52,792 nt of DNA, taken from assembly GCF_000308855.1 (NCBI RefSeq), contig NZ_BAGM01000042.1:1-52792 (forward strand), written 5' to 3'. The translations under genes and the position numbers were made by a program. The DNA is from Nocardia veterana NBRC 100344 (GTDB lineage: Bacteria; Actinomycetota; Actinomycetes; Mycobacteriales; Mycobacteriaceae). Every line of letters begins with the position of its first letter. Position 1 is the stretch's first letter. Shown here in pieces: positions 8,845-10,090 of the stretch. The notes under the pieces were generated by a model. It saw only the letters and a program-made list of their open reading frames with translations, did no database searches and was not told the DNA's origin.

Positions 8845-9435
8845 TCACTGTCGTGACCCGAGAATGGTGTCCGCGAGCCCGTACTCGACCGCCGCCTGTG
8901 CGGTGAACACCCGATCCCGGTCGGTGTCGTGGCGCAGCGTCGCCACCTCCTGACCCGTGTGCCGGGACAGGATGGTCTCGATCTCGGCGCGCATGCGCAC
9001 CAGTTCGTCGGCCTGAATGATCAGATCGGGGATCGCGCCCTGACCGCGGGTGGCCGGTTGATGCAGTACGGCCCGGGCGTGCGGGAGCATCGAGCGGCGG
9101 CCCTTCGCCCCGCCGGCCAGCAGTACCGCGCCGACCGCGATCGCTTGCCCGACACACGTCGTCGCCACCGGCGACGAGATGTGCTGCATCGTGTCGTAGA
9201 CCGCCAGCATCGCCGACAGATCGCCACCCTCGCAATTGATGTAGAGATTGATCTCGTGTTCGGGGTTCTCGGCGTCCAGGTGCAGCAGCTGCGCGATGAG
9301 CGCGTTCGCCACCCCGGAATCGATCGGCGTGCCCAGATAGACGATGCGCTCGGTCAACAGATGCGAATAGACATCCATGATCCGCTCACCGCGGGGATGC
9401 TGGGCGATGACGTTGGGAATGGTGTAGCTGGTCAT
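8845..9435 (-). CDS. ClpP-family protein lacking the catalytic serine (ClpR-like)
   Basis: 196 residues, full ClpP length. The active-site segment reads CVGQAIAVGAVLLA where ClpP2-type proteins read GQAASAAAVLLA, so the serine position holds Ala100 (GCG codon at 9138-9136). His125 (VLHQP) and Asp170 (HDTDRD) remain. The oxyanion-region NSPGG is changed to NCEGG. It is therefore expected to be proteolytically inactive yet able to build a heptamer, like cyanobacterial ClpR. It lies 46 bases downstream of an intact ClpP gene, so the two are probably one operon and one mixed particle. No frameshift is seen, so it is not a decaying gene. Confidence 0.9.
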   Translation of the reverse strand: MTSYTIPNVIAQHPRGERIMDVYSHLLTERIVYLGTPIDSGVANALIAQLLHLDAENPEHEINLYINCEGGDLSAMLAVYDTMQHISSPVATTCVGQAIAVGAVLLAGGAKGRRSMLPHARAVLHQPATRGQGAIPDLIIQADELVRMRAEIETILSRHTGQEVATLRHDTDRDRVFTAQAAVEYGLADTILGSRQ

Positions 9436-9481
9436 GATCGTCCTCCGTGGTTACGCGGGCTGCCGCCTCCGGTCCCGGTAC

Positions 9482-10090
9482 TCACGCCGAGATCCCGACG
9501 CGTTGGCGTTGCGGGATCACCTGGTCGAACGAGTCGACGATGTGGTCGATGAAGCCGTACTCGCGTGCCTCGGCGGCGGTGAACCAGCGGTCGTGCAGGG
9601 AATCCTCGTAGATCCGGTCGAACGGCTGGCCGGTGTCCTCGGCGATGAGGCCCAGCACCGTGTTCACGGTGTGCCGCAGATCGTCGGCCTGCACCTCCAC
9701 CTCGCCGGCGCTGCCGCCGATGCCGGCCGACCCCTGATGCATCAGGATGCGCGCGTGCGGCATCGCATACCGGCGGCCGCGGGTGCCCGCGGAGAGGAGG
9801 AATTGCCCTGCGCTGCAGGCCAACCCGAGCGCCAGGGTGGAGACCCGGCACGGAATCAGCCGCATGACGTCCCGGATCGCCAGCATCGACGGCACCGATC
9901 CACCGGGGGAGTGAATCCACAGGGAGATGTCGGCCTCGGGATCCTCGGCCGCCAGTGTGAGTAGCTGGGTGGTGAGCAGCGTGCCGTTGTCGTCGTCGAG
10001 CCCGCCGTCCAGGACGAGGATGCGACGGCTGAGCAGCTGCTCGCGCGATCGCCAACCGAACAGCGGAATTTTGTTGTCGTCGTGAGCCAT
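9482..10090 (-). CDS. Accessory ClpP peptidase with intact catalytic triad (ClpP3/ClpP4-type)
   Basis: 202 residues from ATG 10090; a GTG at 10108 in the same frame is an alternative and neither has a good ribosome binding site. Ser93 lies in GLACSAGQFLL, His118 in ILMHQGSAG and the Asp in YEDSLHDRW, so the serine-protease triad is complete, as is the HSPGGS oxyanion segment. It is the first gene of the accessory clpP pair. It is clearly distinct from ClpP1 and ClpP2 encoded at 37504-38838. By analogy with the PopR-controlled clpP3-clpP4 operon of Streptomyces it is probably made only when the main protease is limiting. Confidence 0.9.
   Translation of the reverse strand: MAHDDNKIPLFGWRSREQLLSRRILVLDGGLDDDNGTLLTTQLLTLAAEDPEADISLWIHSPGGSVPSMLAIRDVMRLIPCRVSTLALGLACSAGQFLLSAGTRGRRYAMPHARILMHQGSAGIGGSAGEVEVQADDLRHTVNTVLGLIAEDTGQPFDRIYEDSLHDRWFTAAEAREYGFIDHIVDSFDQVIPQRQRVGISA

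Follow-up and report, generated by a model that had tools for sequence, protein, structure and literature searches.

Actinobacterial ClpP4 appears from its sequences to have lost the catalytic serine or histidine separately about six times, whereas its partner ClpP3 has kept the Ser-His-Asp triad in every readable copy. The analysis centered on a gene of Nocardia veterana NBRC 100344 that lies in a stretch of 52,792 nucleotides (contig NZ_BAGM01000042.1, the whole of which is referred to as the window) and codes for a ClpP4-like protein with alanine at the serine position. We consider it likely that this gene and its neighbor specify a second Clp protease in which ClpP3 would do all of the cutting and the serine-less ClpP4 would serve as the docking ring for ClpX or ClpC. 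The ClpP3P4/PopR system as such is known; the wider point suggested here is that a docking-type subunit has repeatedly lost catalytic residues across actinomycetes and its partner has not. PMC accessions given below stand for passages of the respective papers.

The clpP3-clpP4 cassette of the window

The following features make up the cassette (coordinates, strand, description).

8308..8781, plus strand: PopR/ClgR-like helix-turn-helix (HTH) regulator, 157 amino acids, convergent, C-terminus LALAA (HTH_3, 50.8 bits)
8773..8778, plus strand: terminal Ala-Ala codons of the regulator, predicted Clp degron (reading of the open reading frame)
8845..9435, minus strand: clpP4-like gene, serine-less subunit, 196 amino acids (PF00574, 221 bits)
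8914..8916, minus strand: codon of Asp174, the catalytic aspartate, kept (aligned with E. coli Asp171; 107/107 in the Nocardia-type clade)
9061..9063, minus strand: codon of His125, the catalytic histidine, kept (aligned with E. coli His122; 107/107 in the clade)
9136..9138, minus strand: codon 100, GCG (Ala), at the catalytic serine position (direct reading; column of E. coli Ser97)
9223..9237, minus strand: NCEGG motif, residues 67 to 71, NSPGG in a typical ClpP (direct reading)
9482..10090, minus strand: clpP3-like gene, active-type partner, 202 amino acids (PF00574, 180 bits; Ser93-His118-Asp167)
9812..9814, minus strand: codon of ClpP3 Ser93, AGC (direct reading)
10132..10161, no strand assigned: PopR-type operator, at -71 to -42 relative to the clpP3 start (identical at 19 of 24 specified bases)

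The clpP4-like gene has the position and minus-strand orientation in which it was first noted and is full length, free of stops and frameshifts, as an earlier note on this DNA had maintained. That note had also described alanine (GCG, 9138-9136) in the serine column and NCEGG in place of NSPGG, and both descriptions agree with direct reading, the former also with the alignment to E. coli ClpP; the residues around Ala100 read GQAIAVG. Retention of His125 was confirmed as well, whereas the aspartate had been misassigned to residue 170, the true catalytic Asp174 lying four residues further on. The protein thus lacks a complete Ser-His-Asp triad, yet it is a member of the PF00574 fold family. Its AlphaFold2 model (pLDDT 90.0, pTM 0.84) is nearest to the chains of M. 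tuberculosis ClpP1P2 and to other ClpPs, the top Foldseek match being a chain of 6iw7 with a TM score of 0.93.

The clpP3-like gene (10090-9482) is likewise full length, without stop or frameshift, and is followed head to tail on the minus strand by clpP4 (9435-8845), with 46 bases in between. Its triad is complete, as claimed for the upstream gene from the outset, and the aspartate can now be named as Asp167. Solved structures closest to the protein include ClpP1 chains from entries of M. tuberculosis ClpP1P2; its AlphaFold2 model (pLDDT 88.3) is a confident ClpP-like chain and adds nothing further. Nocardia-type ClpP3 proteins show some oddities of their own, namely, HSPGG instead of NSPGG, a Leu-His pair where the ring sensor is otherwise Asp-Arg, and HQG instead of HQP.

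The neighboring regulator scored 69.5 bits against the ClgR model, under the cut-off of 170 set for that model. Related regulators with a readable end number 177; each is convergent with clpP4, and 168 terminate in Ala-Ala. The S. lividans PopR element, taken from a review (PMC9775585), specifies 24 bases, and regions upstream of clpP3 were scored for the operator at these. At least 17 of these bases were present in 152 of 189 upstream regions (a set that still contains L189, L191, and L193, dropped elsewhere as ClpP2), compared with 4 of 945 dinucleotide shuffles. At least 18 bases were present in 36 of 66 regions from Nocardiaceae and in 16 of 16 from the Streptomyces-clade family f21; in the family taken as Jiangella (f22) the operator was not found, with 0 of 16 regions having at least 18 bases and a median of 15. 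The Nocardia consensus of the operator occurs without mismatch at a single place in the genome, upstream of clpP3, and with three mismatches at three other places, compared with two places for a reversed-pattern control. With a two-gene clpP operon next to an HTH gene, the operator, and the Ala-Ala tail all present, the identity of the gene pair as the PopR-type ClpP3-ClpP4 cassette known from Streptomyces can be regarded as settled at the level of sequence. The accessory ClpP pair of the initial description is thus one of a known kind.

In S. lividans, PopR is degraded by ClpP1P2, and clpP3P4 is switched on only when ClpP1P2 fails (PMC9765437, PMC12607617); ClpP3P4 helps Streptomyces survive the loss of its main Clp protease. 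By analogy, the cassette likely acts as a PopR-controlled backup protease in Nocardia as well: upon failure of ClpP1P2, PopR would escape degradation and clpP3P4 would be induced. Two further observations concern the surroundings. A SnoaL/DUF4440-like gene (10200-10778, plus strand) is divergent from clpP3, and it could be co-regulated with clpP3, since the PopR-type operator sits between both. Upstream of the HTH gene, a small CtaJ-like gene (cytochrome oxidase subunit; 7416-7694, plus strand) overlaps a DUF5130 gene (7681-8151, plus strand).

A PF00574 search of the 6.8-Mb genome (210 contigs) returned four ClpP genes, all of them in the window, so that the two ClpP systems originally reported there are indeed present: the cassette and a housekeeping pair at about 37.6 to 38.8 kb, with the following features.

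37342..38139, plus strand: housekeeping clpP1, open reading frame listed from an upstream start, triad intact
38158..38838, plus strand: housekeeping clpP2, triad intact
38945..40492, plus strand: frame with a ClpB_D2-small domain after clpP1-clpP2, presumed from this position to be clpX

A search of the whole genome for motor domains found four motors, one of the ClpX type after the housekeeping pair and three on other contigs, which by their length would be of the ClpB/ClpC type; no motor gene was found beside the clpP3-clpP4 cassette. ClpP3P4 would use a shared ClpX or ClpC. As a control for the triad survey below, housekeeping ClpP1 and ClpP2 were read in genomes drawn evenly across the class, including that of the window; 30 genomes were searched, 3 were without a match, and Ser-His-Asp was intact in 27/27 for each subunit. 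Separately, a Streptomyces-type genome (G018) codes for an extra ClpP-like protein outside both pairs (L229:1486-2130) with Pro, Arg, and Gly at the triad positions, which by its sequence is likely another inactive ClpP. We presume that it may correspond to ClpP5.

Triad states in relatives and number of losses

Relatives were chosen by likeness to the window ClpP4, and the shares reported below are therefore not unbiased prevalences. The full set of 194 ClpP4-like rows combined named loci (the best 80 of 423, of which 69 are from Nocardia), places from a class-wide search of 394 genomes (the best 110 of the listed places, with G009 and all weaker or unlisted places left out), and four plasmid records, with none from the phage collections; it includes the window (L085), and the named Nocardia loci and the genomes of the genus may share species. 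Three rows with Ser-His-Asp were dropped as housekeeping ClpP2, leaving 191: the places of L191 and L193 are the best ClpP2 matches of their genomes, and L189 was judged by similar signs (no HTH gene, 51% identity). The records of replicons filed as plasmids that carry the cassette are L195, L196, L197, and L198 (S. fungicidicus, Tsukamurella tyrosinosolvens, Embleya, and Prescottella equi); the one from Tsukamurella includes obgE and proB and has a chromosomal appearance.

Among the best 80 of 423 named loci, 70 have Ala at the serine position of ClpP4, 8 have Gly, and the remaining 2, from N. jejuensis and Kribbella, have Ser; His and Asp are kept in all 80, and the ClpP3 triad is complete in 77/77 readable copies. 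Across the 191 loci, the ClpP4 triad is intact in 37, lacks Ser or His in 147, and lacks only Asp in 7 (SHN, 4; SHS, 2; SHH, 1), i.e., it is broken in 154 (if the dropped rows are kept, it is intact in 40 of 194). ClpP3 has Ser-His-Asp in all 190 readable rows, the copy of L033 being incomplete. All three genes are present at 174 loci; ClpP3 could be read at 173 of these and is intact at each, and ClpP4 is intact at 35. Because the ClpP4 triad is intact at 37 of 191 loci, its inactivity does not define the system. ClpP4 with a broken triad is common in actinomycetes, with which the earlier note had not associated an active/inactive pair, and includes 17/17 Streptomyces-clade rows.

The substitutions fall into several types. 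Ser is replaced by Ala or Gly in Nocardia, Catenulispora, Actinomadura, Embleya, and others; His is replaced by Gly throughout the 17-row Streptomyces clade (16 genomes of family f21 plus S. fungicidicus); and in 11 rows of the Jiangella family, Ser is replaced by Glu along with Asp by Asn or His. Smaller groups have Ser replaced by Trp or Phe, or His by Asp or Gln. The best 120 relatives of the Streptomyces ClpP4 comprise 118 Ser-Gly-Asp, 1 Ser-Ala-Asp, and 1 intact protein, and the best 120 of the Nocardia ClpP4 have 100 Ala, 7 Gly, 3 Met, 2 Glu, and 8 Ser at the serine position. For the Jiangella ClpP4, the best 120 divide into 104 SHN, 4 SHH, 2 SHS, 4 SHD, 3 EHH, 2 EHN, and 1 SNN, and most of these relatives thus show a milder, Asp-only change.

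Within the genus Nocardia, the clpP4 gene was found in 134 of 150 genomes (E values up to 1e-80), each with a single match and no inner stop; one of the 134 matches is partial (G490, residues 27 to 195). Median pairwise dN/dS values (Nei-Gojobori method, pairs with 0.1 < dS < 1) were 0.162 for ClpP4 (2273 pairs, 70 sequences) and 0.151 for ClpP3 (2064 pairs, 67 sequences). The serine loss is thus real and purifying selection acts on the gene, in line with the initial impression that the change looks selected. The proposal that alanine is fixed in a clade with dN/dS below 1 fared less evenly: the ratio is as anticipated, but alanine is not strictly fixed, the codon counts in the 70 Nocardia sequences being 62 Ala, 7 Gly, and 1 Ser. 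The variability of the serine position (Ala, Gly, and Ser, and among the best 120 relatives occasionally Met or Glu) might be taken as a sign of a decaying pseudogene or a sequencing error in the codon. The probability of either is next to nil, given the presence of the uninterrupted gene in most genomes of the genus, the low dN/dS, the pLDDT of 90, and the same alanine in the closest named relatives of the window ClpP4, which are Nocardia proteins of 95% identity; both were rejected.

A maximum-likelihood tree of ClpP4 was built without the triad columns and rooted with housekeeping ClpP2 and E. coli ClpP. Under parsimony with an intact root and equal costs, the Ser-or-His state changes seven times on the tree of the 191 rows, corresponding after rooting to six losses and one regain; an earlier tree that included the three dropped rows gave five losses and two regains. 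When regains were forbidden, the numbers of losses were 14 on the 191-row tree and 11 on the earlier one. Support was 100 for the Streptomyces clade and 98 for the Jiangella clade, and it was weak for the 104-row Nocardia-type clade (SH-aLRT, 68). The serine regain on the tree is that of N. jejuensis (L026), in which codon 100 is TCG and most of its kin have GCG; this serine is either a one-base regain or a relic.

Docking face and proposed division of labor

The patch tyrosine (Tyr62 of mature E. coli ClpP) is present in 191/191 ClpP4 rows, as is Phe, Tyr, or His at position 82; the third patch residue of the window ClpP4 is His (Tyr in ClpP2). In the ClpP3 patch (187 rows), Trp stands at the position of Tyr62 in 118, and position 82 is Leu in 153 and Phe in 20; a tyrosine is kept in the patch in 46/187, in ClpP3 proteins of other lineages, for which a second docking face is consequently conceivable. 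The axial N-terminal loop, counted as present if at least 15 of E. coli residues 1 to 17 were there, is found in ClpP4 in 191/191 rows and is absent from ClpP3 in 187/187, a difference that depends on the start codons, which were chosen by rule. According to the alignment, the housekeeping ClpP1 of the window is also short at this loop, as a ClpP1-like role for ClpP3 would have it.

In the Streptomyces ClpP1P2 protease, the serine of ClpP1 is needed, and ClpP2 with a Ser-to-Ala exchange keeps full activity (PMC9765437). The hydrophobic patch of S. hawaiiensis ClpP2 docks ClpX, ClpC1, and ClpC2 (PMC9765437), and in M. tuberculosis ClpP1P2 the motors bind to the ClpP2 face (PMC9765437, PMC4416901). 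Transferred to the cassette, ClpP3 and ClpP4 would form a hetero-14-mer with one ring of each subunit, and a ClpX or ClpC motor would dock on the ClpP4 ring. A docking subunit would need no active site of its own, so that under this arrangement catalysis would decay repeatedly in ClpP4 and ClpP3 would stay intact. Specifically, the sequences predict ClpP3 to be the sole cutter. S. lividans is viable with either clpP1P2 or clpP3P4 (PMC9765437); if its ClpP4 has the glycine of its clade, the sufficiency of clpP3clpP4 would imply that ClpP3 alone cuts. If true, the roughly six losses next to a ClpP3 triad untouched in the readable copies would amount to a natural experiment indicating that a docking ring can spare its active sites, and they would answer in part why many bacteria keep two different ClpPs.

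Alternatively, both subunits might be mixed within each ring in the manner of cyanobacterial ClpP3/R, with the inactive subunits tuning the speed or the product length of their neighbors. In Synechococcus, ClpP3/R alternates both subunits in each ring, and giving an active site to ClpR did not make the protease faster (PMC4673316); the sequences analyzed here contain nothing against such rings. However, M. tuberculosis ClpP1P2 is reported as one ring of each subunit (PMC4673316), and the axial-loop contrast between ClpP4 and ClpP3 fits two distinct faces better, which makes mixed rings unlikely in our judgment. The ring-ring contacts were also compared. The Asp-Arg sensor is replaced by Leu-His in 104/105 Nocardia-type ClpP3 proteins, which suggests that these cannot pair with themselves. 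Over 191 rows, here including L189, L191, and L193, the acidic ring-ring residue of ClpP3 is lost in 127/144 rows with a Ser or His loss in ClpP4 and in 35/47 others, a slight leaning; no link between this loss and ClpP4 inactivation was shown, the 5 independent pairs being too few to reach 0.05.

A different possibility is that ClpP4 enters the housekeeping ClpP1P2 and dampens it or acts as a decoy there, by a subunit exchange like that of S. hawaiiensis ClpP-ADEP, which breaks up ClpP1 complexes activated by ADEP and assembles with ClpP2 into a working complex (PMC12607617). Very little credence can be given to it, since ClpP4 is accompanied by an intact ClpP3 in 173/173 readable full cassettes (174 in all) and the viability of S. 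lividans with clpP3P4 alone implies that the pair works there without ClpP1P2 (PMC9765437).

Finally, the site of Nocardia-type ClpP4 could have been rebuilt, with Cys68-Glu69 and His125-Asp174 binding peptide or sensing the thiol state. His and Asp are kept in 105/105 serine-less ClpP4 proteins with an NCE, NSE, or NCA motif and in 5/24 without it, and in the Nocardia-type clade Glu66 is conserved in 106/107 and Cys65 in 101/107 rows (E. coli numbering; Glu69 and Cys68 in the window protein). The 105 rows, however, belong largely to one tree group and may reflect a single history, and the motif also occurs in serine-bearing members (8 of 120 proteins), indicating that it arose before or apart from the loss. 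We hold a rebuilt site taken by itself to be highly improbable; a combined reading, in which repeated active-site loss in the docking subunit would be joined in the Nocardia type by a Cys-Glu/His-Asp site that holds peptide or senses thiols and controls the ClpP3 ring, appears rather improbable. The preferred assignment remains that of a cutting ClpP3 ring and a docking ClpP4 ring.

Comparison with other ClpP pairs

The cassette resembles Streptomyces ClpP3-ClpP4/PopR in the clpP3-clpP4 gene order, the ClgR-like activator with Ala-Ala, and the operator upstream of clpP3, and it is homologous to it throughout. The two differ in the residue lost from ClpP4, which is Ser (to Ala) in Nocardia and His (to Gly) in the Streptomyces clade, and unlike those of Streptomyces, Nocardia-type pairs have NCEGG in ClpP4 and HSPGG, the Leu-His sensor, and HQG in ClpP3. 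With ClpP1P2 of M. tuberculosis and S. hawaiiensis they share the split into two subunits, as far as described in the passages on these proteases, in which ClpP2 docks the motors and, in Streptomyces, ClpP1 cuts; however, both housekeeping subunits have Ser-His-Asp, whereas in ClpP3P4 the split is written in the triad.

Like cyanobacterial ClpP3/ClpR and plastid ClpPR, the pair would combine an active and an inactive paralogue in one core, which is shown for those systems and predicted here. Compared with ClpR, Nocardia-type ClpP4 has lost only the serine, His and Asp being kept in 107/107 rows, and the losses lie inside an actinobacterial ClpP4 tree that holds intact members, this tree having been built from ClpP4 and root sequences without ClpR. 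Within the scope of that tree, the active/inactive ClpP3-ClpP4 pair apparently arose separately from ClpP/ClpR. The resemblance to ClpP-ClpR proposed in the earlier note thus holds insofar as an active/inactive pair is the best reading, but the likeness is one of working principle only. If true, pairs of an active and an inactive ClpP have originated repeatedly, and outside the cyanobacterial line.

An inactive actinobacterial ClpP4 was not mentioned in the open-access literature searched or in the passages of PMC9765437, PMC12607617, PMC9775585, PMC8182300, PMC7142297, PMC4673316, PMC7966870, and PMC4416901; it may be noted in Viala 2000/2002, in Gominet 2011, or in the supplementary alignments of PMC9765437. 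These literature passages contained no settled account of the make-up of the ClpP3P4 core.

The Listeria ClpP1-ClpP2 protease, as described in PMC9765437, is likewise a heteromeric core with one weakened triad, which has Asn in place of Asp. It differs in that Listeria ClpP1 becomes active in the complex, whereas a missing serine should not be rescued in this way. The Listeria state is resembled by the seven ClpP4 rows of the 191 in which only the aspartate is replaced.
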